Shown piece after piece: positions 8,832 through 36,100 of a stretch of DNA of 38,798 bases (the stretch's first letter is position 1; each line of letters starts with the position of its first letter). The notes beneath the pieces were generated by a model. It saw nothing but the letters and a program-made list of their open reading frames with translations, was not told the DNA's origin and searched no databases. Location of the stretch: IMG/VR virus record IMGVR_UViG_3300047284_000549, positions 1-38,798 of that record; one strand, written 5' to 3'. The translations under genes and the position numbers were made by a program. Source of the stretch: a virus.

Positions 8832-8868
8832 TTGATATCAACCCGAAATAGTTAATTCTTCCCTAATT

Positions 8869-8876: not shown

Positions 8877-8881
8877 TTAAT

Positions 8882-8904
8882 AAAAAAAGGGTCTTACGAC
8901 CCTT
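8882..8904 (-). terminator. Rho-independent terminator after the small coiled-coil genes
   Basis: On the minus strand: perfect 7-bp stem AAGGGTC / GACCCTT with loop GTAA, followed by a run of T. It lies 7 nt past the stop of the 73-aa gene. The U-tract is only on the minus strand, so it ends transcription of the upstream baseplate block before the fibre promoter. Confidence 0.88.
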
Positions 8905-8911
8905 AACTATA

Positions 8912-9368: not shown

Positions 9369-9369
9369 A

Positions 9370-15300: not shown

Positions 15301-16533
15301 GTTACCATTAATGATAGGAGAACCCCATACAGTATCAACTAGCAAATAGTTACCCATTTCAAATGGGATGATACTATTTTGTAGTGCTTTAGTATCTCTT
15401 GGTTTTACTAAATCAATATAAGATGGAGCAAGAGTCTCTACTTCAAAACCTTTCACATATGCTTTGCCTGGTCCAATTTCTACAGCATACTTATCTTCTG
15501 CTGGTGCATTTCCCTGTTGCGTTTTTGTACCTGCGGCATAAACACCATTATTGAGTCCGTCATCTAGTGATTCTCTTAATCTAATATCAAAATCTTTAAC
15601 TGTATAATTTCCAGATTCATCATAAGTACGAACTGCCAGCATTTTTTCCAGTTCGGAATACTGAGTTCTTTCTACGAATTTTTCTACTTTAGAATTATTG
15701 AGTCTTAGTAGTTCAATAAAGTTTTTATCCGTATCATCATCAATAACTTTTTTGACAAGAGATGCTTTGATTCGGAATCTATGTCCACCTGGTGCAGCAT
15801 AGTTTGAAGTTCCAGTTGCATTATCATTCAGTGATTCATCATCTTCAGGAGTGATAATTGATTCTGAAATTTCTAGACCAACACGATATGATGGATAGTT
15901 GCTGTATTGATCTAGAATAATTGTTTGCTCTAAAACATCAACAAAAAAACCACGGATGAAATAAACACCAGAATTGATTGTTGCTGTGGAACCAATTGCA
16001 ATAGCATTTGTTGGTAGTAATTGTGCAAATGGTGTACCAATCTCAATTAGGTTTGTTCCAAATGTAATCTCTTTATCACAGACCAACTGTTCGTTATTTT
16101 GGAAAGTTCTAACAGTATTGTTATCCCCACCAGATTCAACATATTTCACATATAATGTAATATAACCCTTTTCTGAATCTGATGCAGATAGAGTATAAAT
16201 TACCTTTGCTTTGACACCAGTTGTTAGACCAGTAATAATTGTACCTACAAGACTTTCACGATATAGGTCAACGGAAGTACCTAAAAAGTTAGCTTGTAGC
16301 AGTACTGCCTGGGAATTGGTGTCATAACCAATTTGACCAGGAATTACCATCGCACCTTCTTTGAATAGGTGCGTTCCTACAGATTCGATCTGATTCTGTA
16401 GGATTGTTTGCATTGTGGTAAGTTCTCTTGCCTGAATTGGGTAACCAGGTCTGAAAAGAACTCTATAAAAGTTCCTAGTCTTGTCAAAGTCATCATAGTA
16501 TGGTGAGATATTGAGATTAGTATTCTGGGGCAT
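9370..16533 (-). CDS. Very large virion structural protein, DUF4815-type N-terminus (2,387 aa)
   Basis: The N-terminus (MPQNTNLNISPYYDDFDKTR, then NFYRVLFRPGYPIQARELTT and MQTILQNQIE, LFKEGAMVIPG) is the hallmark of the DUF4815 family, a standard structural protein of marine T4-like phages. Family-like segments continue to about residue 560. The middle has RFTMRDIGVIEKRLDQVEYY, MDFTAGFLRPAHY and IDRQSLGDSVI. Further on, GWWDPLAQSFLVDSKGGAFI and TKVDVYFKTKDEKIPI begin another conserved beta block. The region between contains repeated TSGA-x-A-x-V modules (for example VLIGQTSGARAVVKE, FKKGTLITGKTSGAKGLVIN). An odd ESCFCFGAPRRVL segment lies near 12,585. The gene follows gp8, where T4 has gp9-gp11, and starts 14 nt after the gp8 stop with AAGG 13 nt before the ATG. 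Inferred role: baseplate periphery or fibre attachment; I cannot equate it with one T4 protein. Confidence 0.82.
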   Translation of the reverse strand: MPQNTNLNISPYYDDFDKTRNFYRVLFRPGYPIQARELTTMQTILQNQIESVGTHLFKEGAMVIPGQIGYDTNSQAVLLQANFLGTSVDLYRESLVGTIITGLTTGVKAKVIYTLSASDSEKGYITLYVKYVESGGDNNTVRTFQNNEQLVCDKEITFGTNLIEIGTPFAQLLPTNAIAIGSTATINSGVYFIRGFFVDVLEQTIILDQYSNYPSYRVGLEISESIITPEDDESLNDNATGTSNYAAPGGHRFRIKASLVKKVIDDDTDKNFIELLRLNNSKVEKFVERTQYSELEKMLAVRTYDESGNYTVKDFDIRLRESLDDGLNNGVYAAGTKTQQGNAPAEDKYAVEIGPGKAYVKGFEVETLAPSYIDLVKPRDTKALQNSIIPFEMGNYLLVDTVWGSPIINGNSITTNYQKLELRDQRGSAGTTAGNIIGYARTAIFEYDNGSDVTAASTTYKAYLFDIQPLSLFKLSNSVTLVQGNVIRGRTSKAKAFVESDQTNSLVKVYQVYGKFIDGEVIEKDGLELGTLSSQFSYEFSDAKAIVGRNSSDVVTFQATAILDEKKVISGSTFNVNSTTLTGTLSNFTRDLRPGDMIYFTESNYAQVKKIDITSGNIVNKISSAISITLESGGTLSNGTYNTLYRKRPQIKDKQTADLLIEMPKSSIKAVSDESVIVARSFDNITVTGSNNFTITLPSDEQFLAYDKDHYMLISLAPTAGTIIDISDKISFNSSGTPRTSLTVSNLSGYTSVRLITSISKNQVEKKIKTATKMNVMKVDRTAITGDVTKFGLSYGSIYGTRIQDDEIALGATDCYKLHAVYESSNDSLPTVPKIMMQDATFFKKGTLITGKTSGAKGLVINFSGVTLGCEFVYKNSNRFLPGETVSGTNTNDELVEGLIDDNEGSVWNGSKDITSNFYLDSNQNGYFYDISKIIRLPNASAPLRKILVVYDRFSHESSGDYFNGSSYVGVDYEEIPALGNKQLRDVLDFRAAVTPVLSGTGTTSDPYFVNCASLDFKDRSFLSGGASNNATVTDIPKPESDFRCDYEFYLPRIDKVFLTDQREFQIIKGKSDETPVPPDEISNSMLLGTLTHEAYGYNPENVIIKRENNRRFTMRDIGVIEKRLDQVEYYTSLNLLEMETNTLSIKDADGFDKFKNGFLVDDFTSLTAAGTNHPDYECSMDFTAGFLRPAHYTSNVPLEYNSTSTSNAVKSVNNAIVTLPYESVRFINQPYASRVENVNPFNVFAFIGRCDLTPSSDDWVDTQRAPQRIVNVEGDFNATVERFGADQSGFAPIQWGAWQTTWSGVTSRSSGGSWQESCFCFGAPRRVLQSTNVTTTTNQTRQGVRTQVVPRIDRQSLGDSVIARANIPWIRSRNIEFKIQRLKPKTRMYPFFDTSSVATYCTPKIIEVIKNSTEDAKTNNIPFQVNETVIGQSSGVRLRLLSPNDGFTFSPYDGTSLPGSYASTTGVINIDTLSMASQVNGAYYGNPIQGEVLIGQTSGARAVVKEKRLISDQSGNLTGVFFIPVPSIDANPRWGTGRRILRFTASKTDSRILGDVDSSAEATYEASGVLETQQETILSVRNADIVRDTVTQNQTIRSTRTETRQVGWWDPLAQSFLVDSKGGAFITKVDVYFKTKDEKIPINVQIRTMQNGYPTTKILPFSDVTVQPKDVQLSDNASIPTTFVFPAPVYLQESQEYALVLFTDSNEYKVWISRMGENDISNDRTISEQPYAGVLFKSQNATTWTADQYEDLKFSMYKAKFVTGVNGKVVFNNAQLGIGNGQIHNLVSNPISTTKPQLKLTLNSPTISYTVGAEISLTDTSPTPSAIIRQVVQGTGGNNGYIIIDDISGTFRTGVTGGALAVYRIVSSRSLGTITLNSGVTGSFTVGQSITTPGGAKATVTNWNSSTRVITVKAVTGTFAVGDTVTMTVGGSTVGSGVIATGGITLTGDDINRYITLTPAYYNTANRITVVHQNHGMHDPANNVRISGVISEVADTAIDAAFHTNGITVSDGVTSDFELHVNDASAFHTVINGLSLDVANPGYIKIGSEIIKYTDISSDGKIITIPSGGRAAGGTNLQAHSTDEAVQCYNLDGIPLIEINTDHSGISNPTLDTYQITTDSIATNGIVSGGDLVYATQNVAFECLTPQITQMKLPQTEITHRFNCVSGSSINDDGQTLLETSFVNDGIYEDVIANVPNIINNQKIICSKINEDTKLNGSKSLIYEVNITSDNENISPVIDLDRTSLITTTNRINNIDISTADSRKSSGDRNKAIYVSKFVELANPANSLKVMFSANLHPYTDIKVLYKAVPVGTTLSVDEIGFEYFNTTGVSDTSIAKTEKFELHDFDYTVNSLNFTSFQIKIIMNSQNQAYVPVIKDFRVIALLDL
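14850..16533 (-). other. DUF4815-like N-terminal region
   Basis: Roughly residues 1-560 of the 2,387-aa protein. Landmarks in order: SPYYDDFDKTRNFYRVLFRP, GYPIQARELTTMQTILQNQI, YFIRGFFVDVLEQTIILDQY, SNYPSYRVGLEISE, VEIGPGKAYVKGFEVET and DLVKPRDTKALQN. The boundary on the C-terminal side is approximate. Confidence 0.7.
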
Positions 16534-16547
16534 CGGAGTTACTTACC

Positions 16548-18083
16548 TTAGAATTCGATTACGATTTTGATATCCTCGATCTGGTCTCCAGCACGAGAAA
16601 TAGATCTTCTATTATCTATATAGATAACATCTCCAGAGTCTTTTTTAATTTCTGGTTTTGCGTATCCATTTGTGAATTTCATACCCAAATCATACTCCGT
16701 ATTATTGATAGTACGAGTTGCTGTATTTGGAATAATTGGGAAGTTGACATCTGGTTCTGCAGAAGTACCAGATGAAGCACCAATAACTGGGTTACCTCCC
16801 TCAAATTGTGCCAATGATCCTGTAATTTCTGGGAAGATGCCATCAACACGGTTTTGATAATACTTCAATACTTTAGTAGTGGAATTCCAGGAAATTACTC
16901 TTCCACGTGCAGTAATTTGTTGTCCACCAACGGTTCTGGTTTGTGTGATGATTTCATCAGTTTGGAAAGAACCAGTAAATGTCGGTGGGAAAATAACTGC
17001 ATATGTTCCAGATAAAGTTAATTCAGATGCAAGTTCGGTTGTTCCATATCTATTTGGATTTACTACCAATCCAATACGACGATAATCGTTATCAGTTGGG
17101 AAGTCACCAGAACCTTCTGCATAAGAAAACTTAGTGTTGATCATTACACGGTATCCACCAAGTTCAAAGGATGGATCTGAACCATGACCACCCTTTGGTG
17201 GAACAATTACATCTAACTGAGCTCCAGATCCTGTTCCAGCACCAATACCGTTGATTTCATCAACAATAATCTGACCGAATGAATATCCAGATCCACCAGA
17301 TGTTACCGTTGCAGAAACAATTTTACCACCGTCAACCACGATAGAAACTCTACCACCACTTCCATTTCCTTTAATGGGGACATTCTCATATGTACCATTA
17401 TTATATCCAGAACCAGACGAAGAAATTACAACTGTATCGATTTCCCCAGATGCAGATTCAGCCTGCACTGCAACATCACTAAGAACTGGCATGTATTCAT
17501 TCGAAAAGAATTTCAACACAGAACCAACAGGAATTGTAAACATATATTTCCAACGATAACCATCAGTCGTGGTAATGATTGAAGTTGATGTTCCCGTTGG
17601 TTCCACAGTTGATGGTTTGCCGTTGGGGTCAGATGGTGAAGTGCCATTGAAGATGCACTTATAAACCTGATACTGAGAATTTACAACATAGAAATCAGCA
17701 TCATATAATTTTGTAGCACCAGAAGATGCTGTTTTTGTGGAAGAGTAATCGTGACGATACATGTCATAGGTATATCCCAATCCACCAGTAGTTTTCTCTG
17801 GTGGAGTCCAGTCAATTCTACGAATAACTTGAATGGTGTCGTTTGATAAAACTCTCTTTAGAGAAATTAGATCATCGTACACATCACTAAATTGTTGGAA
17901 AGAATCAACAGGAGTTGGGGGAGCATTTTCATTATCCCACTCTTGTGGTCTACCAATAAAGACATATAGACGATCTCTATTTAAACCAGCAACAATATCT
18001 GAAGCAGTTTTATCTGGACCCTCAAGAGTTTTGATAAATCGTTTAGCTGCAAATACCCTAAATTGATCAGTAAGTAAGGCCAT
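16548..18083 (-). CDS. 8: Baseplate wedge protein gp8 with a GSGY insertion
   Basis: 511 residues against 334 in T4. Gp8 is a core component of the baseplate wedge. The N-terminal ~200 residues keep the gp8 layout: LYVFIGRPQEWDNENAPPTP (T4 has FITFGRSEPW and later APPYPTDS), a DDLISLKRV helix, VIRRIDWTPP, DFYVVNSQYQVYKCIFNG, then PTGTSTSIITTTDGYRWKYM and FTIP (T4: DGYVWEYLFEIP). The C-terminus SGDVIYIDNRRSISRAGDQI followed by EDIKIVIEF is also typical. At about residues 213-298 sits a block of GSGY type, and at about 365-440 a QITARGRVISWNSTTKVLKY unit; together these explain the extra length. A perfect TATAAATA lies 24 nt upstream of the ATG; the Shine-Dalgarno (AGAG, 8 nt) is weak. Neighbours on both sides are structural. 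Confidence 0.9.
   Translation of the reverse strand: MALLTDQFRVFAAKRFIKTLEGPDKTASDIVAGLNRDRLYVFIGRPQEWDNENAPPTPVDSFQQFSDVYDDLISLKRVLSNDTIQVIRRIDWTPPEKTTGGLGYTYDMYRHDYSSTKTASSGATKLYDADFYVVNSQYQVYKCIFNGTSPSDPNGKPSTVEPTGTSTSIITTTDGYRWKYMFTIPVGSVLKFFSNEYMPVLSDVAVQAESASGEIDTVVISSSGSGYNNGTYENVPIKGNGSGGRVSIVVDGGKIVSATVTSGGSGYSFGQIIVDEINGIGAGTGSGAQLDVIVPPKGGHGSDPSFELGGYRVMINTKFSYAEGSGDFPTDNDYRRIGLVVNPNRYGTTELASELTLSGTYAVIFPPTFTGSFQTDEIITQTRTVGGQQITARGRVISWNSTTKVLKYYQNRVDGIFPEITGSLAQFEGGNPVIGASSGTSAEPDVNFPIIPNTATRTINNTEYDLGMKFTNGYAKPEIKKDSGDVIYIDNRRSISRAGDQIEDIKIVIEF
17185..17445 (-). other. GSGY composite block inserted in gp8
   Basis: About 85 residues: SSGSGYNNGTYENVPIKGNG, then SGGRVSIVVDGGKIVSATVT, SGGSGYSFGQIIVDEINGIG and GTGSGAQLDVIVPPKGGHG. 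T4 gp8 has no such stretch. Unit for unit it parallels a block at 30287-30560 in the giant gene, including the ending (D/N)V(I)(V/I)PP(K/Q)G. Confidence 0.75.
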
Positions 18084-18106
18084 TTTGTTACTCTATTTTC
18101 CTTAGT

Positions 18107-18114
18107 TATTTATA
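18107..18114 (-). promoter_or_regulatory. T4-type late promoter TATAAATA before gp8
   Basis: Perfect TATAAATA on the minus strand in the 31-bp gap between the 717-aa gene stop (TAG at 18115-18117) and the gp8 ATG. Expected start about six bases downstream gives a leader of roughly 18-20 nt. It would let gp8 and the genes behind it be transcribed independently of the giant gene. Confidence 0.72.
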
Positions 18115-20268
18115 CTATTCAGTTTCGTCTCTAACTAATTGGAAGTATTCCAGATTAGCCACCTTTGCGATAGCACCATTAGCTCCAGTAATTGTTTCTA
18201 ACAATTGATATTCATAGTTGATGACTGGATCTGGGAATACAGGAGACTTGACATACAGATAATTGTCTGTCTTAACAAATAGTGGATTTGTTTCCAATTC
18301 AATTGGTTCTTGTTCCATTTTAATTGCGATTGCTCGGGTTGTATTACCAATAATAGAACCAACGGGATTTGAAAGTTCAACAGTTGTTGAATTAATGATT
18401 CTGGAAATAACAGTATTATTTGGAATTACATCACCAGCAACTACCATACCCTCTTCTAGATCTAAAGTATTTGATAGTATTAGGAATCTACTATTAGTTG
18501 CCATCTGCCCAGATGTTTCCCATACACCATTTGTTATGATGCGATAAAATACAACTGTAGATTGAATATTTCCAGTTTGTCCTGTCATTATTTCATTTGA
18601 CACCCAAGTGACAGTATTTGTTGGGTTCAGTTTTATTTTAATCACTGATACATGTCTTTCTCCATCAGTCAGTCCAGTAACTTCAACAATCGATGCCTCC
18701 AGAGGTGGTACAGTAGAATCACGGACAACTTCACCAACTTCAAATAGTGTAGTATTCTGTCCTCCAGTGGTTTCTTCAATACCATATAGTGAAGCTGCAT
18801 TTCCTCCATTTAAATAAATTTCACCCTCAAATGCAGTTTCATCATTATAAATGTCTGCAAATCCATCACCACCAACAACAGGTTCTGATGTTGCTGTCAC
18901 TTCACCAATATAATCATCTTGAAATTTTACATCTTGTAAGATAGTAATTGGATTTGTTAATAAAGTGATAAAGTTCCCAGATGAAGGATCAACAAGTACA
19001 TGTGGATTTAGGAGTGCAGAACCAGAGATTCCTCCAGTGAAAGCAATAACGTTACTTTTTTCATTAGCACGACCAGCATCAATAAATGCCAATTCATCAA
19101 CTTGGAATGTGATATAAAGTGCTTTTGTTACTGGATTCCAATCATAAACTCTTGCAATTTTATTAGATGCGTTGGGAGTTGTTCTATTAACTCTATCGGA
19201 AACAGCAAATTGATATCTAGAAATTCCAAATGAATCATCAGCACCAGGATCTAAAATAATTTTTTGATCATATCTAAAATTAATTCCTCTATTACATCCA
19301 GTAAATTGATTTGCTGTTTTTCCAGTGTAATTTATAATCTCTTTATTCAAGAATAGAGATCCAGATCCAGGATAAGCTGAAGTTGATTCTACTGTAATTG
19401 AAGAATCTGATGGTTCAACATCCTTAACTAATCCAGTCAATGGTTTGACTGATGAATTGTAAATTTGACGATTTTTTACTTTTCGAACTAGTTTTGATTG
19501 TCTAGCAAAAATAACCTCAGGAGCAGTTGTATATTTGCCACCAGGATCGGTAACTTGAATAGAATCTAATTCACCAAGATTTACAGCTGCAACAGCTTTT
19601 GCTCCAGAACCACCACCACCAAGTAAAAGAACTAGTGGATTAGTTTCGTAGAATTCACCTGGGTTTTCAATTCTAATATTAGATACTATACCAAATTCGT
19701 CTACTCCAACAACACCACTGGCACCTGCTCCACCACCACCACTAATACTTACGGTTGTGTTAGTTGGTAAGTACTCTCTACCAGGGTTCAATATGGATAA
19801 TCCAGTCACAAATCCCGTTATAGGAACTGCAGCTGCTCCTTGTCCTCCTCCACCTCTAATGATTGCTGTTGTTTCACCAAAATAAGAATCACCTTGAGAT
19901 GTCAGTTGCACATAGTCAATCTCTCCAGTTATATTACCTTCCAGATCTTTTTTTAAGAAAACTTTTCCACTAGCACCAAAAGGTTGACCCTCTCCTAAAT
20001 TTTGTGGGTTTGTGCCATTAATTTCAACACGAAGAGGGTCATATCCATATCCTGGATTTAAAACATCAACTCGTATAATACTTCCATCTTTTATAATTGG
20101 TCTTAGTTTTGCTTCCTCCGTTGGAGTTCCAGCATTTGTAATTCTTAAAATAGGTGGTCTTTCTGGGTCATATCCAGATCCACCATTCTCGATAGTAACA
20201 CTATCAACACCTAAGTTATTATTGAAAATGGGAGTAATTATTGCTCCTGATCCAGGTACTAATGCCAT
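18115..20268 (-). CDS. GSGY-repeat structural protein, 717 aa
   Basis: I do not recognise a T4 counterpart. The N-terminal ~260 residues are six or so repeats of the type V-x-x-x-N-x-G-x-G-Y-x-P-x-x-x-P-x-(V/I) followed by GGGG-x-GA-x-A (for example VTIENGGSGYDPERPPILRI, TVSISGGGGAGASGVVGV, LDSIQVTDPGGKYTTAPEVI). Residues ~285-335 hold an SSITVESTSAYPGSGSLFLN, EIINYTGKTANQFTGCNRGI unit also found in the giant protein. Later come VGEVVRDST and IMTGQTGNIQSTVV units and a RFLILSNTLDLEEGMVVAGD unit. The start is firm: GGAGGA about 7 nt before the ATG, 16 nt after the previous stop. Position between a wedge-like giant protein and gp8 suggests a baseplate component or decoration. Confidence 0.8.
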   Translation of the reverse strand: MALVPGSGAIITPIFNNNLGVDSVTIENGGSGYDPERPPILRITNAGTPTEEAKLRPIIKDGSIIRVDVLNPGYGYDPLRVEINGTNPQNLGEGQPFGASGKVFLKKDLEGNITGEIDYVQLTSQGDSYFGETTAIIRGGGGQGAAAVPITGFVTGLSILNPGREYLPTNTTVSISGGGGAGASGVVGVDEFGIVSNIRIENPGEFYETNPLVLLLGGGGSGAKAVAAVNLGELDSIQVTDPGGKYTTAPEVIFARQSKLVRKVKNRQIYNSSVKPLTGLVKDVEPSDSSITVESTSAYPGSGSLFLNKEIINYTGKTANQFTGCNRGINFRYDQKIILDPGADDSFGISRYQFAVSDRVNRTTPNASNKIARVYDWNPVTKALYITFQVDELAFIDAGRANEKSNVIAFTGGISGSALLNPHVLVDPSSGNFITLLTNPITILQDVKFQDDYIGEVTATSEPVVGGDGFADIYNDETAFEGEIYLNGGNAASLYGIEETTGGQNTTLFEVGEVVRDSTVPPLEASIVEVTGLTDGERHVSVIKIKLNPTNTVTWVSNEIMTGQTGNIQSTVVFYRIITNGVWETSGQMATNSRFLILSNTLDLEEGMVVAGDVIPNNTVISRIINSTTVELSNPVGSIIGNTTRAIAIKMEQEPIELETNPLFVKTDNYLYVKSPVFPDPVINYEYQLLETITGANGAIAKVANLEYFQLVRDETE
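19480..20265 (-). repeat. GSGY repeat cluster in the 717-aa protein
   Basis: About six tandem units of 35-45 residues covering residues 1-260. Typical cores: ENGGSGYDPERPPIL, LNPGYGYDPLRVEI, LNPGREYLPTNTTVSISGGG, ENPGEFYETNPLVLLLGGGG and TDPGGKYTTAPEVIF. The glycine runs appear in the DNA as CCACCACCACC stretches on the plus strand near 19,605 and 19,730. Confidence 0.8.
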
Positions 20269-21191: not shown

Positions 21192-21199
21192 TATTTATG
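21192..21199 (-). promoter_or_regulatory. Candidate late promoter CATAAATA overlapping the giant-gene stop
   Basis: CATAAATA on the minus strand, one base off the T4 consensus, covering the TAA stop of the giant gene and 23 nt before the next ATG. If used, the transcript would begin within or after the AAGGAG element, leaving that site incomplete. It is therefore weaker evidence than the sites before gp8 and the fibre gene. Confidence 0.35.
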
Positions 21200-24100
21200 T
21201 TTGGTCATAAGTAAAAATAGTATTATCTAGATTTAATTCATCACTATCTAGAGTTGGTGTAGCTCCAGATGGAACATCAGGAACTTGATTGTCCACTTCA
21301 ACTGATGGATAGATGTATCCACTACCAGGATTGGAGATATCAACACGATAAATACCAACTCTTGCTAGTAATTGAGAATCAAATCCAGTCGGTGATAAGA
21401 CTTCAACTGATGGTCTAGAAGTATATCCAGATCCAGGTGAAGTTATTGTTGCTGTATCTAGTCTTCCAGAAATAATTTCAGCAACTGCAGATCCATTTCT
21501 ACCCTTAACTGATCCAGAATATTCAAATGTAATTAGTGAGTTTGAAGACTCAATAACAGCAACTTCACGATTATATTCTTCACCCTCAATGAATATTTCG
21601 TCACCAATCTCTACTGGTGGTACAACAGCAGCCGAGATAACGTCTGCATCGGAACCAATGTACGAGAAAGCAACAAATGAGGATCCAGCACGTGGAATTT
21701 CAGTAAAGGTTATACGAGAACCAACAAGTTTGAATCCAATTCCAGGTTCCTGCAAGACACCGTTCACAGCAACAATAATATTATTTTCTGGTAGAATTAC
21801 ATTGGACTGAACACCAGATGTTACAGTTAATGAATAGAAGGTTCCTGAAAGTTTGAGGTTGAATGAACTTCTTAGTGAATCAAAGTCAAACGAAATATCA
21901 TCTAGTAGTCTTAATTTACCAAGATAATATGAATGGAACTGTGCCCCAGCTGCAGGTGCTTCAGAGAATTGAATATTGTCTGCAAATACAGTATATGCGT
22001 AATCTGCACCAGGTGGCTGTAGAATGCCATTAACAAATACAAGTAGATGACCATCAGGATCTGGGAAATAAGGAGATCCATTATTGGTTGTTAATTTGAA
22101 AGAAGTTAATTGACCATCAAATCCTCTAGAATATCTAGATGCACGGGCAACAACCTCGGCAGATAGTAATACAATTGCTCTAAATCCATAACCAGATATT
22201 AGTTGTGCATTATTTTCAAAGGAACCTTCAACTTCACCAACCCAAATTTTGATCGTAGTTCCAGATTGTTCAATTCTAGTAATTTTTGCAGAAGCTTCAC
22301 TTGGTGTAGTTGTGATTGAAATTAAATTAGCATAGATTTTTGGTTGTAAAGTTCCAGAACGATAAACACCAATAACATTACCAGCAATTTGAGAAGATGT
22401 GTCAAAGTCGGAAGTTTTATTGCCAACTACCATTGTACCAGTTAAGGTATCATATGAAACAATAGTCGCATATTCTCCAGATGGTAAGTTATTAACAATA
22501 ACATCTAACCTATCACCTTGTACAAATGCATCTGTACTATTTCCCGAAGTTACAATTGAACCAGTATCAATTTGCAGTTCTGTAACTGTTGTGGTTCTAA
22601 TGTATTCTCCAATTAGTGGAACTCTAACACCAACAGCATCCATACATGTTAGTAGAACATCAGACTCTGATGAGTAAATTAGATCTGATCTTGTGAATGA
22701 TCCTTCAACAGTTTCTGTATCCAACGTCAATACACCAGAGGTATTGTCAATAATAGATCCTGAGTTATAATTCCATTGTGTAATTATTGCTTGTGATGCA
22801 GATGTTAATGAATAAATTATTTCATTTTCAGAGAATTTACCCATCATTGGTTGTAACATCAGATGATTATCTATGGATGTAATAGTTGCTGTTGCAGTGC
22901 TAGTATCTCCAGTAATAATATTTCCGATTATTAATGTTCCACCAGATACATTAATTAAATCAACATACCCTTCACCTTCAGAATCGATATAGGTTTGATA
23001 TATTGTTGCGGAAATTCCTCCAGTTGCAGCAATGGTTTCTCCCTCAACAAATCTTGGAGGATTGGCTCCAACTCCACCTAATTCAATATAGTATCTTGTG
23101 TAAGTTTCTCTAATTTTAAATTTATTTTGTTGAATTAGTGCAACTTCAGCATATGAAGTTGAAGTATCCCCATATACAAATGCTGATGGTTCCATAGACA
23201 GAGTATATGGTGTTGGGATAGTTCTTATTGCATATGATGGTGATGGCACATTAATTCCTGCATCTCTAGTTTGATTGGTAATTTCTGATGGAGTATCAAT
23301 AATTAATTTAAAGAAGGTGATTAAATTATCAATATAAGTTGATGTAGTTCCAACAACTAAACCAGTTTCAGAATATCTTGGTTGACCAGTAGTTGGTCCA
23401 AGAGCATTCAATGATTGATTAATTGCTCTACCTGCCCAAACTCTAATTCTCTCTAAGTGATATTTTAGATGAACGGGGTTATAACCAGAGAATGCAATGA
23501 AGTTGTAGAAAGCATCCAACCAAGATAGTGCTCTTGCATAAGATTTGGCATTACCATTCGTGATTAAATCATAGATCATATCATTTAGAATTGTTACTCC
23601 AAATGATACAGATCCTGGATATAATGGGTATGCTGCCTTTGTCTCATTATATGCTTCTTGTGTGATATAACTTGTGTTGAAGATTAATAATTTTGCAGCA
23701 CTTCTTCTACTGGTTGATGAGTATTGTGAAGATTCTTCTGAAATTGTGTAAAGTAGTAGATCAAATAAAGTTGAAATCGCAGATGTTACGTTGGCACAAC
23801 CAGATGGATTTTGATTATCTACCCCATCCGCAATTATAGTGAGATCTCTATATGCAGAAGTTGATGTGTATAGAGCAACATATGCTCCACTTGGAGTGGT
23901 AATTGAATTTTTAGAGTATAGTAGATTATTAACTGCTTTTTGTGCAAGTGGTTTAGCAAGTTCTAATGCCTTATGCATTGCAAGTAATTCATCTTCAACA
24001 TACAGAATATTTGTATTTGAATCAATATAATATTCAAAAGCACTTATAGTTGCATTATTACCTCCAGTTAATAGATCAGTGATCATTGCAGGTATTAAGT

Positions 24101-27100
24101 AATCACCCAAATCTCTGATGCATTTTTGTGTGTTTGGATTTGTGAATAGGTCATATGTAACACCACTGGAAGTGTTGGTCCATTTAAAGAATTGTTCAAT
24201 TCCTTCGGCAACTTCTTCAGCAATATATTTCTTGTTGAAGTATAGTAAATTACCAGCATCTCTAAATCTATTACCAGTTGGGGCTAAGATATCAGCAATA
24301 GTATCGCATAGTGAAGTAATTTCATTCGTAACCGAAGTATTGAATGGAGATTCAACAGGAACATTAATAATACTTGAATATTGAACAACAATTGTATCAA
24401 GTAAAATTGAATTTATGATTTCACCGATCTTCTGATATGCATATACGGATTGTAATAATTCCCCACCAATAAATCTCAAAGCACCTGACTTTTCAAGATA
24501 ATATTTTGCAGTATAAACCGTATTATAATTACCACCATTTGTTAAATCATTGATAATTGCATCTACAATATATCCAGCATCTCTTGCACAAATGTTAGTT
24601 CCATCTTGTCCACCTGCTTCATCACCTGGAATTAGTAACAGTGGGTATCTTGCTTTCAAGTAACCAACCATTTCGGAAATGATGAAATCTTTATTTTTGG
24701 TAATGTACTCTGCAGCATCTTTAAATTCTTGTCTAGCAGGATCGATTGCTTCTACTGTTAGTTGCTTACTGATTGGATCAATTTGTCCAACAATTCCAAC
24801 GGATGTTCTTAATGAATCATATGATGCAGAAACATACGATTCTGGATAGATGTCTGTTGTTCCATTTAATCCATTAAAGTGGAATGATACAATATCAGCA
24901 GAATCATCTTCAAATTCTTCATTTTCTGGTGTAAATGTTGCAAGATATCTTGCCGTCATTGATAATCTGAAATCATCCATCAATCCACGGAAACCAGTGT
25001 TATCTTGATAGGTAGATCCAATTCTCAACGTTTGACCAATATAATTATTGGTATCCGCATATGTCTGAGTCTGTAAGACACCACCAATATACATTTTGGT
25101 AGTTCCAGACTTTCTAACCACAGCAATATGTGTCCATGTATTCACAGGAACAGTTGTATTTGATGTAATTCTAGAAGAACCATTTGTATAGAAAACTAAT
25201 TGATTTAATGTATTAAAATATAGTGTTGGTACAACTTGAGCAGTTGAACCAGTTCTCATATCGAGTAGGTATTGTGTTGTTGCATTTACTGTTTTGTAAA
25301 TCCACATCTCCAGAGTGAAGTCATTAGTACCAAGATCTAATTTCTCTGAATTATCAATCTTAATATTATTTGTTCCAGTGTTACTTACACCAAATGCTGC
25401 AGCAGATAGACCGAACTTACAATCATATGCTGGTTGTGTTGCAGTTGGAACTGTCTTAGTTGAAATAATATCATCAAGAGTTTGCCATAGTGTATTAATA
25501 GTCGAAGCAACGTTGGCACAAGTTGGATTTGAAGAATCAACAGTTAGTGTTGGATCTGTTGCTGGAGTTAAGATGGTATACTTTGCATAATTTAAAGTAA
25601 ATGTTGCATCTCCAGTGCCTGCTGAGGCAGGATTCTGATTCATAACTAAAGTTGTTCCATCGGTAATTGAAACAATCTTAGTGTCTGCACTAAATCCAGT
25701 TCCAGTGATATCCATTCCTTCTACAAGACCAACAGTGCTTGAAACTGTTAAAGTTGTAGAAGATGAAGTTCTTACCGTGCTTGGAAGAGTAACAGTGAAG
25801 TTTCTCATCGCAGCAATCATTAGATCTCTGGCATATTTAAATGCAGCACGAGACTCATTCTCTTCACCAAGAATATATTGAATATTTCCATTACCATCTA
25901 CATAGAAATCACCTGCATTTACTGTTGCTGAATTTCCACCATATTGTAAATCAAATTTAATTGCGTCGATGATATAACCAAGATCTCTCTTGCATGTAGT
26001 TTCACCTGGTGAGAATTCACCAACGTTTAATGTTGGTAGTGAATTTATATTTCCTGCAGTAATAGAAGTTGTTAAAATAGCAAATAATGTATCAATAGTC
26101 GTTCTGACATTTGCACATGAGTTTGGATTAGTATTTGATACTGTTCCTGATGATGGATTTGGATCGGCAATAATTGTTAAATCTTTTACTGATAATTGAT
26201 TTGTTACTGCCTGCTTACATAGATCTCTTGCTTGATTGAATGCATATACTGATTCTACTTCTTCTCCAACTAATCCATTGGAAATTGGAACACCATTATT
26301 GAAATAGTATTCGGTTGCCATTCTTGTCCACTTATTTCCACCGTCATATAAGTCCTGAGCAATTGCTAGGACAACATAACGAAGATCTCTCTTACATTTT
26401 GTTGGATTTGGATTTGTGAATGCTGGATATTGTGTTGCAATAGACGCAAATGCAGTTGCGACAATATAGTCAATATTTGCACGGATTAAATTAGCACCAT
26501 CTTTATAACGATATGAAGATGATGGTGAGTTTGGATAGTAGAAATCTGGATACTTTTTAGCAATATATCCAATCACCTCTTCCTTGATTAACTCACGGTT
26601 TGCTTCAATTCTATCTGCGGCATCTAGATATCTAAATTCTGGTCTAGATACTAGACGAACTTTTGGTGTTCCAACATTTGTCACATCCCAGTTTACTAGT
26701 GTTTCACCTGAAGTGAATGTACCAGTTGGTGGTTTAATGTATAGATATGAATTTGCTGAGTTTACACCAATAATATCTGCATAGGCACCACTGGTCCTTC
26801 CTTTGATTCTATAATCTGGGAAGAATGTCCCCTTTGATTTATTTTTGTAAATAATTTTTCTAGATCTTACAGTTTCACCAATTGTAAATGCACCATCAGT
26901 AATGGTAATTCCAGAGATTGCTGAAAGACTTGGTTCTGGGGAATTTGTTAAACATGCAGTTAGAATTGCGATTAGTGTATCAATATTTGCTCTAATATCT
27001 GCACATGAATCAGGACTGGTGTTCGATCCAGTAGCTGCATCTGCAATGATAGTTAAATCAGTTTGTGCACCAGGGATAGTTAACGTATTCGTTACTGCCT

Positions 27101-30100
27101 GCTTCATGTAGTTTCTTGCCTGGTTAAATGCGTATACAGAAGGCACCAACTCATTGCTGAGACTTCCTGCACCAGAACCCTCAAAATATGCTTTGGTTGC
27201 CACGTACATGTTTGCATTTCCACCAGACACTAGATCATTGGATACTGCATCAATGATATAACCCAAATCTCTCCTGCAAAGTGTATCACTATTGTTTGGG
27301 AAATCAAAATCTGGATATTGTGTTCCAATGTCAACAATCACTTTATTAATAATTGCTGCCTTATTCAATTGAATTAGTTTTTTAGCATCATATGCTCTAT
27401 GATTAACTGGAGGTACAGCATTTACATAACTGATTTTTGTATTTCTGATATAATCACCAGAAGACCAGGTTCCAGTTGAATTATCATAAACTAAGTTGAT
27501 ATTTTGTGCGTATTCTGATAGTGGGAAATTCTGGTTGACAAATTGTACATAATTATCGATCTTGGATGCACCAATAATAGTCTTACTGATATCATCAACA
27601 ATCGTGTTGGGGTTTTGTGGTAGTGGTAGTCTCTCATAAATCATACCAAAGAATGTTGATCCTGGGTTAATCTCCAATCTAGAAACAATCTGATTGGTTG
27701 ATGGATCACGATATGGATTTAGTTTAGTAATCTTACCGACAATTGAAGTCTCAGCACTGATGAAATAGTCATTTAGTTGTAATTCGAATAGACCTGTTTC
27801 AAATTCTGATGTACCACTTGTTCTACTGATAACTAGTTTATTAGTAGGTGATCCTAAATTCCATGCACCAGGATTTGGATATGGTAAAGATGCAATCGAT
27901 CCTGTTGTTAGTGGAGTTGTTACAATAGCAATTAGAGTATCAATTGCTGCCTTAACATCTGAACAGTTATTTGGATTTAGGTTTGTATTTGTATTTGGAT
28001 TTGCTCCACCATTTGTTGCTAGAACTCTATCTGGTAGAATGTCTACATCTTTTGTTGGTAGTTGATTGGTAATTGCTTCTTTGCATAGATCTCTCAATCT
28101 CTGGAATGCGAAGATTGATTGTACTTCTTCACCGACCAATCCATTAGAAATTGGACTTCCATTACTGAAGTATGCAGAGATTGCAGCAACAATATTCGAG
28201 TTTCCTCCACCCCTGATGTCGTCAATTAATGCATCAATGATATATCCAAGATCTCTCTTGCACTTATCATTTGCACCTGCTCCCCCAGGAACCACGAAAG
28301 ATGGGAATTCTGCCTGCATATCATTGAATGCAGTTTGGATGATATATTCTCTGTTTGCTGTCATTAAATCAGCAGCATCGGAGAATCTATGAGCAGTTTG
28401 TGCAGTTAAATTATTCCAAGCACTGACTTGAGTTGGATATTTTGGTAATGAACTTGCAAGGTTGATCTCTTCAATAATTGCTGTTTTCTTATTGAGGTTA
28501 GTAATTTGTTCACCAAATAAGAAAATTGTATCCTGAATTACGGTACTTACGGAAGTAATTTGAGCATTCAAACCAGTAGCAGAAGCAATGATGGTCTCAT
28601 TGACTTGGAATGATCCCACAATGTTGATTACATCTAAGTATCCAGTACTACTAGATACAACAGTAGCCGTTGCATTTGTGATAATTCCTCTAATTTGTTG
28701 ATTGATCTCTGGGAAGATTCCAGAAATGTTAGTCAATGAAATTCTCTTAACTGGAATTTGCTCAAATTCAATTTCACGATATACAACAGAAGCTGCTGGT
28801 TTTGGTGGCTCACTGAATTCGATATTACCATTTGCAATGGTATATGACTTTCCTGGAGACTGAACAATACCATTGATCAATATCATTGTCTGTCCAGTGG
28901 TAGCAATAATTTGCTCACCATTGATCTTTAGTGGGAATGAAGTCTTGATACCATCAAACTGGGATGAAATATCATCTAGTTTCTTAACGACAGAAGTTAG
29001 AATTTCCTCAGATGAGGTCAATCTCTTATTTCTGAATAGAACATCAGTATTGCTGAATTCAGTATAGATTGGTTGAGCAGCAGCAAAATTAGTAATTTCA
29101 CTGAAGTTTGTGAATTCAGAAATATCAACTCTCTTAGTGAAATCTGTTGATACTTTTCTTCCAGATAGATCCTTACCACCAGTTAGGTTTAATTGTCCGA
29201 ATAGGTTAAATCCAGCTGGGTGGTTTAGTTTCCTTACGGTATTTCTCCACTGATTAATTGGAATATCACTATTCACAACATAAGAGAAGTCCTGATAGAA
29301 ATAAGAATCTTGGATTTTTTGTACAATTTCTGATGGTTTACCTACGTTATCGATAAACTTACCAGGAGTTTGTGTAACAGGACCAATATTTAGAGTACCT
29401 TTTGCAGAATTGATATTGTCAATAGTTCCACTTGCCTTAGATACTAGACCTGTCACCTTTTCACCAATAATCCATTCACCAGTATAATCGACTAGTTTTA
29501 ATAGTCTAGGACCAATCTGCCAACCATCATTAGTTGATACATATCCAACTGCAGTTGGATTATCTGCATCATTTCCTTGATAGACCTTTTCACCTTGAAG
29601 GAATCTAGATGTCTCTACAATTGCTTCTGCCTTACCACCAAAGACTTCGGTAAGTAGAATTTGTTTTCCAGCACCACTATTCAAGAATGTAATAAACTGA
29701 CCATTTTGTGCATCTTGTAGTGTTAGAGCAATTCTCAATTGATTATCTTCTAATCCATTCACTTCACCAGCAATTGCATAATATGTTTGTCCCTCAACAA
29801 GTGAGGTCAAACCAGCTGAAGATGGTTGTGGTAATTGACCAGCAACGGATCCGAGATCATCAGCACGTAATGAAATTTCAGCACCAGTAGTGATACCATG
29901 TGGGAAGTTGAACTGGAAGTATCCAAGATCGACGTTTACGACATAGTTGAACTCTGATTTTAATGTGACAGTTGGTTCTGAAGAATATCCAGATCCTGGA
30001 TCTTTAACAACGACTTCTTGTAAACGATTATTTTTTACAGTGGCAACAGCAACAGCACCAGTTCCACCACCACCACTAATAACAACAGCAGGTGGTGAAG

Positions 30101-33100
30101 TGTAACCAGAACCAGGATCTGTAACCTTAATCTCAGTAAGAACTGAAGTATTGAATAGTTGAACAACAGTTGGGAAGGTAATTTCTGGCTTCAGAGTGTA
30201 GTCATGTGGATAATCATAACCAAAGTTATTATTCTTCAGTCTCTTAATCTTACCAACTTGAGTTCCCTGTAGGAATACTGATGCACCAGTTCCTTGTGGT
30301 GGGATTATGACATTCAATATCGCACCAGAACCCGATAGTGATGGACCTAGAATTCCAGGAATTGAATCAATATCAATATAACCAGTAGTGTATCCCTTAC
30401 CAGGATCAACTAAATCTACATCAGTAATTGTTCCAGTTACGGGATCTCCACCAAGTTCAACGGTAATATTTACCTTTCCACCTTCACCATCTCCAGAAAT
30501 TGGTACTTCTCTATAAACACCAACCGCATATTCAGTACCACCATTATCAATATCAATCCTATCGATTTGACGATCAGATGCAATATCAGTTACGATAGGT
30601 AGTTTTTTGTAGAAACCACCCTTATTAACTAATTTGATGCTATTGATTGGTCCAGATGCTTTTGTTGAAGTAGTTGAGTATTTTGTGGAATCTAGAATTA
30701 CAGGTCCTTCTGGTTCTCTCTCCAATACAAATCTAAATTGCTTAGATGATGGTGTCGCAGTAATTCTATACTTGCCCTTATATGGAGTGTCTACAACGTC
30801 AATGAAAGAATTAATTCCAACAGGACTATCAGAACCAGTATGTGATGGGTCGAAGTAATATGAGATGTTGGTAACGTCACCAATTGTTTTAAATCTTACA
30901 TAAGGAATAACACCTGGTGGGTCAATACCAGCATTACCATTTCTGGTTATATTGTTGAATGAATACTCAAGTTTGTACTGATTATCCTTAGAGAATGACA
31001 GATAGTATCCAGCATTAGAAGGATCTCCAACATCAAAGATGTATTGGTGACCTCTAACAAATACCAATGATGGATGTTTTGCATAAACTTGTACAGCAGA
31101 AATGCTGCTACTAGTAATTGGATCTAGTGTCGCAACACTTCTCAATCCGTATACATATTCTCTACTATTGATTCTTCTCTTCACAAAGAAGCTACCATTG
31201 TAGCTACCATACAAGAATCCCTCAACGTAGATGATATCACCAACTGAATAATTATGAGCACTGTTTGTTACAATTCCAACTTCATCGGTTCTTGTAATTA
31301 CTGATGCTTTTACAATTTTTCTTAGATTACTAATTAAAGTTACTTTATTAACCGCAGTTAATCCAGTAATAGTTGCAGTCTGATATGTACTATCGAAAGA
31401 AATATTTACATTATTAAATCCAATAGAAACGATATCACCAGGTAGGAACGAAGACCCTGGTTCGGTAGCAACAATTTTTAAAACATAATCATCTGCACTA
31501 AAATTCTTGAATTCGGCATGACCAGATGGAATATCCGAAGTATAATTGGATAATGCAAATTGGAATGTTCCTAAAGTGCCAAAATATGGAACATCGGCAA
31601 ATGTATATGAAAATTCATTGATTGATGCAACATCATCTTTCAATCTAGATGTTGTATTTAAGGTGCCAAATACTTTTCCAATCAATGCATAATTGTCACC
31701 CTTTTCAATAATTGTACCATATGCACTAACAACATCCTGAGCATTTTCTCCAGTACCTTGAATGGTATACCACTGGAGTAATTGCCCAACTTCGAAGTTT
31801 GCATTTTGATTAAACGTAATTTTCTTAATATTGTCTGCCTTTGTTACCAGGGAATCACGTAGATAATATTTCTTAATTACATCTGTAGTGACCTTTAGTG
31901 TTTTACCTGAAGGTGTTGGGATAGTTGCAGTACGTGATGTGAAGTTTGATGTATTTGAAACAAACGTATATACACCAGGAAGGTGTGCAGATACTGCATC
32001 AGAAAAATCTAATAACTGATAACCAGCAGATCCCTGATTGTAGTTGGATAATAATGCTGGATTGTAATCTTCATCAATTGAATAAGTTACATCCGTAATA
32101 TTGATTGAAGATACATTGTATAGATCATTAAAATTATAAGATCCTAGTTTTGTGTGATTGTTATCTAATTTGGTAAGAACGGAAATATCAAATTGAACTG
32201 TAGAGTTGAAATGTAAAAGTAATTTTGTATTGAAGTCTCTGTCAAAAGATGTTGTTGGTGCAACAAAATTTGCATTATATCTTGAGATGTCTTTAGATAA
32301 TCTAAATTCATCAATATTACCAACAAATTCATATTGTCCAGCATAACTTGCTGATGCACCTATTGTCAGTCCAGTTGCATCTGGGGTTGCAGTAGATGTA
32401 CCTGTGAATACAGATATTCCATTTACAAATGCTTTAATTACTGATCCAGTTCTAGACCATGCAACATGAGTCCAAGTATTCAAACTAACTGGAGTGCCAG
32501 AGGTTTGTTCTTGAACAGTTCCATCATAATGAGTTAGATATAGATTTGAACCTGACTTACGTAGACCCCAATACCAATTAACTCCATTTAAAGCACATAC
32601 CATTGAATATGTACCAGATGGTAAAGATGGTACATAAACCCAAGCTTCTAATGTATAGTCACCAGATAGATCAAAATTAGATGCATCAGTAACTGTAATA
32701 TAGTCACCTGCACCATCAAGTAATAATGATGATCCACCAAACATAGATCTTGCTGTACTAATACTTGCATTTCCAAAATATGTTGGGATTACACTATCTG
32801 ATGATGTAGATCCTAAAATAAATGTATCCGATGAACTGTCAACAGAAATCGAAGATCCCTTCCAGGTTTGGTTTACTAAAACTCTAGAATCATTCAGAAT
32901 TTCACCACTGTGTTTAAATTTAACAATATCGACAAATGAATTTGTTGTAGTATCAACAGATACTCCAATATTGATATTATTAAATACATCTATTGCAATA
33001 CCAATGCCTTTGATTGAAGAGAATGTGGTAGCAGTTGGAGAAATTCTCTTAGCCCAAACCAAGTCAGCATAGTTGTTCAAATCAATTCTAATCAGTGTGA

Positions 33101-36100
33101 CTTTCTCAGTGTTTCCAGTAGAATCATTTGTTTCTGTAGCATATACATATAAACTTTCATAGTCATCAATTTCAATTTGTGCATCGATAAATTTATAATT
33201 TGTTGGATTTGGAATTCTTCTACCCCAATCAAAATTGATGTTTACGTTATCATATGATAGCTTACCATAGATAATATCTTCTCCACCAATGATACCTGAG
33301 AAATAAATATCTTCTCCACGGAATATTAAATCTGTTAATTTTTCCTCTTCAGTATCTGTAGTTACTTTTCTCTTCTCAATTACATCACCCAGTTCATTCA
33401 TCAGTACAAACCACATATCATTTCCAGATACAGTGTTGGTATCAGTGTATCCACCCAATGCTAGTAAATCTAAATCTGAAGACCAATCAATTGCAGATGC
33501 ATAGTCTCTTCTAGTTGATCCAGAAATTCCAGCTAATTCTTTCTGCCACTGAATTACTCCATCTGGTTGATTTTGTGCGTTAAATCCCGAAATATATTTT
33601 GCAACTAAAATATCAGGATTGTATGTAAGATTGATCGTATTTTGTGAGGTTTCACCCACAACATAAATTGTATGTGGATTTGTCTCAACGACAACTAATC
33701 TCTTCCATACAGCATCTTTAGCACCAGCTGCTGGATTTATTGGAGTTAATGTTCTCTTCCAGATTAATCTTCCATCATTATTGAACTTAGCTAGGACTGC
33801 TGCTTTATCAATACTCTGAACGATTCTACCGCAAGCATAGATACTGCGATCTTCAGCAACATAAGAATCAAACCATTCAACTTTTCCACCAATTGAGTCG
33901 AATTCTGTTACAAAATAATTTGCTTTTTTGTAAATTTGAGGATGAGTAATTCTAATCTGAGGTGGATTTTCAACATCGTATCCATTACCTGAATTGATAA
34001 TATCGACAGTTTTTACTCTTCCTTGATCTTCAAGATTTAATTGGATTACTGCATCTTGTCCAGAATCGGAAATTAATTCATACTGTGGTGGAATATCAGA
34101 ATTGTATCCAATTCCCTCTTGGATTACTGAAACGGTTTCTAATCCAGCAACAGTCTTAACCTTAAAGTTTTTGAAATTTGTATCTAAGGCTGGTTCTGTA
34201 TCAATAATTACAGTATCTCCGATAGTCAGACCATGATCATCTTCTGTAGTAATAGTTGCAATTGTTTCATTATTTACATATGATGATGTGTAACTTAAGA
34301 TTTTGGATCCCTGAACAGTTTCTACTTTTGCTGAAGCACCAAATCCATCAGTACCTGTATTGTCAAAAGTAACTTTATCATTAACTTTGTAATTGATACC
34401 TGGGTTTTCAATCACAAAACCATCAATTTGAGCAGACTCAAATTTAGTTGTTGTCTCTACTTCAATATCAACTTTTGATTCAATATCAACTTTAGGGAAA
34501 TAATCAAAAATTTCAAGAGATTGTTCTTCAGTTAATTCAAGAACTTCGAGTTCTTCAGGGTTTGAAATTACACCATCGTTGTCAGAATCTTGAATTTCGA
34601 AAATAATAGTTTCACCAGCTTCTGTTGTGATGAAATCAGTTCTGGAATTTGGCTGTCTTTCAGTATCAATATCTACATTTTCATATGGATCCCTATAACG
34701 AACAACATCTTTAGGGATGCTGAATTGAACAGCATCTTGTGATAGGTTCCAAGTATCTGGTGATGAATAATATTGTGGACCAATAATGTATGGATACTGT
34801 GGACTACCCTGTGCAGATGCATCAATTGTCACAAAATATGCATATGTTCCTGTTGGATATTCTGGTGTCTTGCAGAATCTTCCATTATATTCATCTAAGT
34901 CTCCATATCCAAAAGAATATTGATAGTCTTGTACGAAAGAACCTGCTTCATACAATTCTAATGGAGGACCATCAATTCTAGATGGTAATGGATTTGTATC
35001 AGCATTGTATACAATATTTGTCTTTAACTTATATGAAGTACGCATTCTTCGAACACCTTTCGAAGAATCCGTTGGATCTGTATATCCATATGGACCATAA
35101 ATTGGGTTACCATCAAATGCCCATCCAAGAATAGGTGAGTGTAAGAAAGTGCCTTCATTTTCCTGAATTACTTGTTCAGAATTTTTGAATACGTTATCTC
35201 CAAGAACATATCTTAATGTTTGAGGATTTGAAACGTGAGCATATTCACCACCGTATTGAGTATTATAACCCGCAAATACATAACCACGTGCAGTATCATA
35301 CTTATCACTTAATTGATACTCAAGATCATATAACCAGTTGAATACATTGGTCTGGAAAATTGCTCCTTCTCCAATCGATTCAAGTCTAATTGTCGTAATG
35401 CCTTGAGTATAACCAACACCTCTATTGGTGATTTGGATGCCAATTACCTTTCCTTTATCTTCTCCAACTGTACCAATAACTGCCTTTGCCTTAGCACCGA
35501 AACCATCACCATTAATATAAACGTTAGGTGCTGTTGTATAACCTTCTCCAGCACTAATAACAGCAATCGAAACTACCCTACCATTGATGATGATTGGTTG
35601 TGCTTCTGCACCTGATCCAGAACTCAATACTGCTGTTGGAACGGAAGTATAATCAGAACCTGATGAAATTAGATTAACTTTTGAAATAGGTCCTCTAACC
35701 GATGCTAAAGCAGTAGCACCATAACCACCACCTCCAGAGATGCTGATAATTGGTTCTGAAGTGTACCCCTCACCTGGGGAGTCCACAAGGATCTGAGTAA
35801 CTACCCCATTCGTTACAATTGCTCTAGCAGTTGCTCCAGCACCCCCACCACCAACAATTGATACAAGAGGGGAATCGGTATAACCACTACCACCATTGGT
35901 TACCTCGAAGGCAGTGATAGAACCATTAACGGTTACTGTTGCTTCTGCTCCAGTACCATTCCCCCCAACAAAAGTTAGAATAGGTGGATTTGCTGCATCA
36001 TAACCTACACCAGGATTGGAGATATTTACCGAAATAACACCACCATAAGTAACATAATCATTTGATTTAAATGACCAGGCAGAAACACCGTTAACCCAAG

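Follow-up and report, generated by a model that had tools for sequence, protein, structure and literature searches.

Recursively nested domains of the phycobiliprotein family in a giant tail protein of T4-like cyanophages

A giant open frame runs through the window analyzed here (the whole 38,798-nucleotide stretch of the viral record IMGVR_UViG_3300047284_000549), and it raises the question of what the helical, cysteine-bearing repeats within its product are. A preliminary description made from the sequence had reported about seven copies of an unnamed repeat. The copies are real: a helical unit of ~150 residues recurs in the window protein (n = 7; identity to copy 3, 28 to 51% for the other window copies), and its motifs are as originally quoted. 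The run is not simply tandem, however. With N for helices A-B and C for the stretch from the CxRD helix E to helix H, the window array reads NC NC NNCC NC NC NC; copy 3 lies inside copy 4, within its helix B-E loop, so that the first two helices of copy 4 are displaced upstream and its two halves are split by copy 3. A LamG/ConA-like lectin domain separates copies 4 and 5 (Table 1). In the outer C half of copy 4, an inserted beta element also parts helix G from helix H.

Table 1. Features of the giant open reading frame, in window positions.
Feature	Position	Strand	Residues (aa)	Details
Giant virion structural ORF	21195..38798	-		Single open frame, 5' end cut off
Array of seven phycobiliprotein-like domains	23340..28385	-	3472-5153	
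Copy 1	27906..28385	-	3472-3631	CKRD Cys 3513, second Cys 3612; PF00502 match
Copy 2	26946..27392	-	3803-3951	CRRD Cys 3841, second Cys 3932
Outer N half of split copy 4, helices A-B	26532..26630	-	4057-4089	
Copy 3, nested in copy 4	26058..26507	-	4098-4247	CKRD Cys 4135, second Cys 4228
Outer C half of copy 4, helices E-H	25461..26006	-	4265-4446	CKRD Cys 4269, second Cys 4427
LamG/ConA-like lectin domain	24951..25379	-	4474-4616	PF13385; between copies 4 and 5
Copy 5	24285..24725	-	4692-4838	CARD Cys 4737, second Cys displaced (4831); best PF00502 match
Copy 6	23742..24266	-	4845-5019	CIRD Cys 4893, second Cys 5001
Copy 7, degenerate	23340..23702	-	5033-5153	Without cysteines

Phycobiliproteins are the pigment-carrying proteins of cyanobacteria, the hosts of cyanophages, and by homology and fold the repeat is almost certainly a domain of this family of bilin-binding globins. 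The earlier proposal of an undescribed domain family therefore fails: large fragments match the named Pfam domain PF00502 (Phycobilisome) with 34.7 and 23.4 bits against a curated cut-off of 22.2, single window copies alone falling just under it, and 26 of 60 diverse single domains match PF00502 at an E value of ≤0.01 and no other family. Phycobiliprotein structures were matched as well, making up 59 of the 60 listed PDB matches for a profile of 6 copies (best, 2e-5) and 60 of the 60 listed for a profile of 60 domains (best, 1e-7). Alignment with cyanobacterial phycobiliproteins (hhalign; sequences fetched with a phycocyanin query that is a 100% match to a Synechocystis genome) gave a probability of 97.7 and an E value of 1.5e-12 over 116 columns. 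An AF2 model (pLDDT, 85.7) and Foldseek agree on a globin-like fold built from helices A, B, E, F, G, and H; phycobiliproteins are 49 of the top 50 Foldseek matches (~165 columns; TMt, 0.55 to 0.74), at probabilities of 1.00 but with E values that, taken by themselves, are weak (best, 0.022). The sequence-level match spans helices A to G, and helix H is placed by topology. Together, the Pfam, PDB-profile, and Foldseek results rule out an unknown fold. The N-terminal X-Y helices, which serve alpha/beta monomer assembly in phycobiliprotein antenna subunits, are absent, as each domain begins at helix A and is preceded either by a beta module or by another N half; the domain is therefore a member of the wider family only and not an antenna subunit. 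A search of openly accessible journal papers turned up no earlier account that places phycobiliprotein domains among the structural proteins of phages.

The giant ORF, whose product is at least 5,867 aa long (5,867 aa lie inside the window), encodes the gp7-position baseplate wedge/tail protein and is phrog_701-like. Annotated relatives show the gene order gp25-gp6-[giant]-gp9-..-gp8-VrlC, the baseplate/tail context of T4-like cyanophages (gp6-giant-gp9/gp8-VrlC), and the window protein is a whole-protein homolog of PHROG families phrog_701, phrog_4527, and phrog_5342. These are labelled "virion structural/tail fiber" without a domain identity, and we came across nothing that links them to phycobiliproteins or to nesting. 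The ortholog cluster T4-GC969 was detected in S-SM1 virions by mass spectrometry (PMC3037559), and the domain protein is very probably located in the virion, its presence itself being taken from that cluster. Viral relatives were sought with single-domain queries, their alignment having no conserved 7-mer. The domain was found in 357 phage records, all of them cyanophages save one labelled "Marine," and in none of the other T4-like phages. A phage lyase gene, cpeT, occurs in 15 of 31 records and adjoins the domain gene in about 10 of those 15; two large contigs that keep the Cys motif, G024 at 171 kb and G011 at 128 kb, yielded no cpeT, cpeS, or bilin reductase.

Cysteines are rare outside the repeats, as had been noted (8 in ~4,200 aa, versus 16 in the ~1,570 aa of the repeat region). 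The claim of a cysteine pair in six copies needs amendment: the first cysteine (C-x-R-D) is present in six window copies and missing from the seventh, while the second stands at an equivalent position in five, that of copy 5 being shifted by ~5 residues. The two are the most informative columns of the domain. Across 144 non-redundant C halves, Cys1 is kept in 139, the Asp in 140, and the full CxRD in 124. Phycocyanin and phycoerythrin beta subunits carry a second bilin Cys at 153/155, the helix-H N-cap, and Cys2 lies at the helix-H N-cap in 127 of the 144 phage C halves, in the same hydrophobic register; its likeness to Cys-153/155 is placed by topology, past a longer G-H loop, with helix H left unaligned by hhalign. 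The first repeat cysteine is the bilin-attachment cysteine of the C-x-R-D motif, a motif of covalent bilin binding (PMC10151467). Ahead of Cys-84, the canonical PGGNAY-RR segment has been cut short or has given way to the nested insertion, which leaves an altered chromophore pocket.

Most simply, the near-invariant C-x-(R)-D motif and a second Cys resembling that of beta subunits would reflect retained covalent bilin attachment, with loading by phage CpeT or host lyases and with host or phage bilins. Judged from residue conservation, the chance that a bilin is attached in at least some copies may be a little short of even. The alternative that survives best is that the host-borrowed phycobiliprotein fold is only a rigid, insertion-tolerant building block without bilin, in which Cys and Asp persist for the sake of folding, of thiol chemistry, or of a different ligand. 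The altered B-E loop, nesting at this chromophore-proximal site, the occurrence of the domain in phages without a detected lyase or bilin gene, and the employment of the fold in large structural proteins all favor such a scaffold, which we regard as a substantial possibility on the doubtful side. Against it, the two cysteines, exact CxRD included, are the most conserved columns at 25 to 50% identity in a protein otherwise poor in Cys, the domain is confined to phages of cyanobacteria, and in about 10 records the lyase gene neighbors the domain gene.

If bilin attachment is retained, phycobiliprotein-like tail domains may be the reason for the pigment-making and pigment-attaching genes of these phages. 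Since 2010, what phage pebS/pcyA do has been described as "a mystery" and what phage cpeT does as "unresolved" (PMC3037559), and we found no paper naming a phage-encoded client protein; a virion protein with a phycobiliprotein fold and a bilin motif, often beside cpeT, is a candidate. It is unlikely, though conceivable, that cyanophage tails are themselves biliproteins, with nested arms that carry bilins via phage Ho1/PebS/PcyA and CpeT and that possibly form a light-responsive element in host adsorption; such a tail photoreceptor is speculative. If true, it would explain the light-dependent adsorption of cyanomyoviruses (PMC2984593) as well as the hitherto unexplained bilin genes.

The preliminary description had instead suggested a disulfide or metal link per repeat, and the joint presence of both cysteines in 124 of 144 non-redundant copies fits a structural site of that kind. 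However, Cys1 is retained in 14 to 15 of the 17 non-redundant copies without Cys2, and in beta subunits of phycobiliproteins the counterparts of these positions are two distinct bilin sites located away from each other in the fold. With Cys2 lost independently, a disulfide pair is disfavored, and a structural site joining both cysteines is very unlikely.

That the copies are recursively nested can be held with high confidence. Among relatives, the order of half-domains forms a balanced-parenthesis word of up to 10 levels, reached in L060, where one array holds 12 domains. Eighteen of 22 distinct nested N/C words are perfectly balanced (shuffles: mean, 2.96; maximum, 10 in 20,000), a figure that is not fully blind because C was counted only where the CxRD helix matched, a rule set after unpaired "extra C" matches had appeared. 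The off-by-one words are L077 (an ORF shorter than its relatives'), L053 (a missing CARD-containing segment), L049, L080, and the L046 group, which is one N short. The unpaired matches (L008-L020, L022, L024, and L036), which had at first resembled breaches of nesting, prove to be pieces of helix H or of helices F-G-H lying out of place (hmm 76-122 or 39-121), a sign that insertion may occur at additional sites.

Balanced words, the depth of 10, and the tracking of pairs all agree with an A1-B1-C-B2-A2 order of matching halves. One and the same domain of a relative is matched by the outermost N and by the outermost C, with ~990 aa between them, and half pairs could be followed between relatives that differ in how many inner domains they hold (tracking between the distant arrays L074 and L060 was uninformative). 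AF2 modeled the nested pair with a pLDDT of 85.7 and a pTM of 0.82 and a 4-deep nest, from 5 sequences only, with a pTM of 0.75; an independent BFVD model aligned over the whole nested pair (TMq, 0.67). The balanced-word and pair-tracking tests rule out a simple tandem repeat. Separate tandem repeats of N-type helical hairpins and C-type helical modules, stacking independently, could produce the observed runs of N halves (10 in L041 and L060) and shift their lengths through tandem duplication, but this is strongly disfavored by equal N and C counts, balance far beyond that of shuffles, tracked half pairs, innermost N-C units that are contiguous full phycobiliprotein folds, and the high pTM of the nested models.

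Taken as a whole, we lean toward nested phycobiliprotein-family domains in a T4-like cyanophage tail protein with bilin attachment retained. On this reading a domain of this family was recruited into the giant baseplate/tail protein, with copies placed recursively in the loop that joins helix B to helix E (the C-x-R-D helix) of other copies. The chain would accordingly lead outward through one short N half after another, reverse direction in the innermost domain, and come back through the C halves, so that both termini of this monomeric arm would lie at its base. The earlier idea of a spacer or stack still fits these results, though the form is more unusual, because nested copies would make hairpin-like arms. 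Such arrays are a natural system for studying the folding of deeply discontinuous chains, and thousands of residues of "hypothetical" cyanophage tail proteins now have structural names.

Among known systems, phycobiliproteins (PF00502; phycocyanin, phycoerythrin, and allophycocyanin) share with the phage domain the globin-like fold of helices A-B-E-F-G-H and the C-x-R-D motif; the second Cys with which helix H opens in beta-type subunits is a likely further parallel, the phage position being set by topology. The phage domain differs in lacking the X-Y helices, in its shortened B-E loop and long G-H loop, and in being nested many-fold in a virion protein of >4,000 aa, where the motif makes bilin a candidate ligand. 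Other bilin-binding globins are the BBAGs, which bind bilins without a lyase, and smURFP, an engineered allophycocyanin fragment whose short chains match the phage profile, but both stand alone, un-nested, and are no part of virions. The core-membrane linker ApcE (L-CM, with its PB-loop) likewise places a phycobiliprotein domain in a giant multidomain scaffold, and its extra loop at the helix B-E position, the phage insertion site, offers a precedent; ApcE has one loop insertion, whereas the phages insert whole domains recursively, and Ser replaces Cys in the three ApcE sequences examined. Related domains are also inserted recursively in the Si3 insert of cyanobacterial RpoC2, down to six levels, the depth singled out by a survey from 2026 that covered 2.7 million domains (PMC13114784). 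Si3 has a different beta fold, and the same-family nesting of the phage arrays exceeds it at 10 levels.

The window, a viral contig from IMG/VR, encodes the structural gene module of a T4-like cyanophage relative, with genes in the order small terminase, gp15, gp14, gp13, tail fibre, a VrlC-like giant, gp8, wedge proteins, and a giant ORF whose product contains YHYH and LamG domains and numerous beta modules. Seven copies of the helical repeat noted in the preliminary description were located in this protein. Pfam analysis of the repeats returned PF00502 (Phycobilisome) at 34.7 bits (E = 2e-8), above the cut-off. Among the PDB sequence matches listed, phycobiliproteins account for 59 of 60 with a profile of six window copies and for 60 of 60 (best E = 1e-7) with one built from 60 diverse single domains, 26 of which individually matched PF00502 and none of which matched another Pfam family. 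Alignment to cyanobacterial phycobiliproteins with hhalign extended from helix A to helix G (probability 97.7, E = 1.5e-12, 116 columns). An AF2 model of aa 4051-4454 (pLDDT 85.7, pTM 0.82) found phycobiliproteins in 49 of its 50 best PDB matches (probability 1.00, TM by target 0.55-0.74); because Foldseek gives only modest E-values (0.02-0.15), the fold assignment depends on independent methods agreeing. The repeats, suspected earlier to be an undescribed domain family, thus match a named one. The domain is a phycobiliprotein-family member, classed by family and not as a pigmented phycobiliprotein; it begins at helix A and lacks the X-Y helices of antenna subunits. Short structural matches of the model to Arthrobacter phage proteins (Bridgette 8eci_1, rank 6; Judy, rank 49) probably fall on its beta insertion. 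The two LamG/ConA-like domains of the giant protein are candidates for receptor binding.

Each unit was treated as two parts, the N half comprising helices A-B and the C half running from helix E, which bears CxRD, to helix H; the matches were then placed in order along every related ORF. In the resulting words copy 3 of the window is inserted within copy 4, and some other ORFs nest more deeply (see table). When a C half was counted only where the match includes the CxRD helix itself, 18 of the 22 distinct, complete words with nesting formed perfectly balanced parentheses, whereas 20,000 composition-preserving shuffles averaged 2.96 and never exceeded 10; this is no strict p-value, since the words are phylogenetically non-independent and the counting rule was fixed after partial matches were seen. 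Words of 28, 26, 24, and 22 elements are exact under either C-counting rule. In ORF L073, the outermost N and C halves lie ~990 aa apart, and the same domain of L072 is the best match for both (0.72 versus 0.38 and 0.73 versus 0.37), while the number of domains between them differs; this lends nesting independent support. A four-deep chain of L074 was predicted to fold with pTM 0.75 from an input of only five sequences, and an S-CAM1 tail protein modelled in BFVD aligns over the entire nested pair (TMq 0.67).

In cyanobacterial ApcE the PF00502 match is split in two, covering profile 2-55 and 67-154; the extra PB-loop separates helix B (..SRAANRIF) from the SLRD helix E and occupies the same B-E loop as the phage insertions. 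Phycobiliproteins therefore tolerate insertion at that site. In some arrays a half is displaced at the G-H loop or the F loop, suggesting that further insertion sites exist. C halves whose pieces flank nested groups, the break falling past the GGN segment or in the loop joining helices G and H, suggest second and third sites in L022, L024, and L036. Giant ORFs of close-relative contigs (L076 to L079) differ in start or end points, probably through frameshift or assembly differences.

Positions and half-domain order in the window and related contigs
Sequence	Feature	Position	Detail
Window	giant ORF	21195-38798	minus strand; 5' end truncated; at least 5,867 aa
Window, giant protein	seven helical copies	aa 3472-5153	NC NC NNCC NC NC NC
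Window	LamG/ConA-like domain	24951-25379	inside helical array
Window, giant protein	LamG/ConA-like domain	aa ~2028-2168	
Window, copy 4	beta insertion in the G-H loop	within 25461-26006 (aa ~4336-4401)	similar insertions in L004, L005, L006, L023, L080
L059, L032	word		NNNNCCCC
L017	word		NNNCCC NNCC
L026	word		NNCNNNCCNCCC
L074/L075	word		7 N, 7 C, then four NC, then NNNCCC
L006	word		NNCC NNNNNCCNNNCCCCCC NC NC NC
L060	word		10 N, 7 C, 2 N, 5 C
L041	ten N halves in succession	7655-10288	contig ends within first C half; array incomplete, depth at least 10
L022	interrupted C halves	aa 909-948, 1593-1680	ORF coordinates
L024	interrupted C halves	aa 899-998, 1626-1670	ORF coordinates
L036	interrupted C half	aa 1404-1447	ORF coordinates
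G018 (IMGVR_UViG_3300036770_003690)	bilin reductase PF05996	1326-1976	E = 4e-59
G021 (L076)	cpeT adjoining domain-bearing giant tail gene	5631-6104, then 6173-18397	

A tblastn search with one domain found 999 places in 357 phage records, all Synechococcus, Prochlorococcus, or cyanophage save one 'Marine', and a second domain gave the same spread (328 records). For comparison, the window neck protein retrieved 2,363 records from T4-like phages of many hosts (only 378 of them named Synechococcus, with another 61 named Cyanophage). Within this search, the domain is confined to cyanophages. It occurs in gp7-position baseplate genes of P-HM2, Syn19, and P-SSM3 and in short-tail-fibre genes of S-PM2 and ACG-2014e. 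Syn19_088 is part of cluster T4-GC969; mass spectrometry of purified virions detected the S-SM1 protein of that cluster (PMC3037559).

The two repeat cysteines are the most informative columns of the family. Of 144 non-redundant C halves, 139 retain Cys1 (of the C-x-R-D motif), 140 the Asp of that motif, 124 the complete motif, and 127 Cys2 (at the helix-H N-cap). The earlier observation that both recur in six window copies held for Cys1, but Cys2 keeps its position in five copies, is shifted in copy 5, and does not occur in copy 7; cysteines are indeed scarce elsewhere (8 in about 4,200 aa). In phycobiliproteins and bilin-binding globins, CXRD is the motif for covalent attachment (PMC10151467). 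A divergent nested pair in the L008-L020 group (NCKED, DCADD) has Glu or Asp for the motif Arg in both copies and lacks Cys2 in the outer one, offering natural variants for probing CxRD.

CpeT belongs to the T-type bilin lyase family, which loads the Cys-153/155-type site that the Cys2 position resembles. Of the 31 records tested, 15 carry the cpeT gene, and in about ten it lies within 1.8 kb of the domain gene on the same strand (some judged on contig coordinates only); these records are partly related and so not independent events. The placement of cpeT nevertheless differs: upstream in S-PM2, ACG-2014e, and contigs G010, G018, G021-G023, and G026, and downstream in G002 and G003. CpeS and bilin reductases occur in three contigs each; G018, the contig with the 10-deep nested array, carries both a reductase and cpeT. 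Against attachment, the available sequences of G024 and G011 hold no cpeT, CpeS, or bilin reductase though their domains bear Cys, and the loop preceding Cys1 is shorter than in antenna proteins. Bilin attachment in at least some copies is plausible, though we lean slightly against it. A disulfide within each repeat, suggested previously, is disfavored as obligate because Cys1 is retained in 14-15 of 17 copies without Cys2.

The nested phycobiliprotein-family domains would probably form arms. By their topology, each inserted domain would extend the arm while both chain ends remain at its base, so that arms could be fitted into the loops of a baseplate protein rich in beta structure and lengthened by nesting. 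If bilins are present, each arm would be a pigment-bearing rod. Adsorption is light-dependent in several cyanomyoviruses (PMC2984593); a tail biliprotein as a light-responsive element in adsorption is a speculative candidate, and an unlikely one. The open-access literature searched yielded no account of phycobiliprotein domains in structural proteins of phages; the fold family is already known, and no description of this setting or architecture turned up. In a 2026 census covering 2.7 million domains, cyanobacterial RNA polymerase is highlighted with six levels of nesting (PMC13114784), whereas the phage arrays nest one family within itself, up to ten deep.
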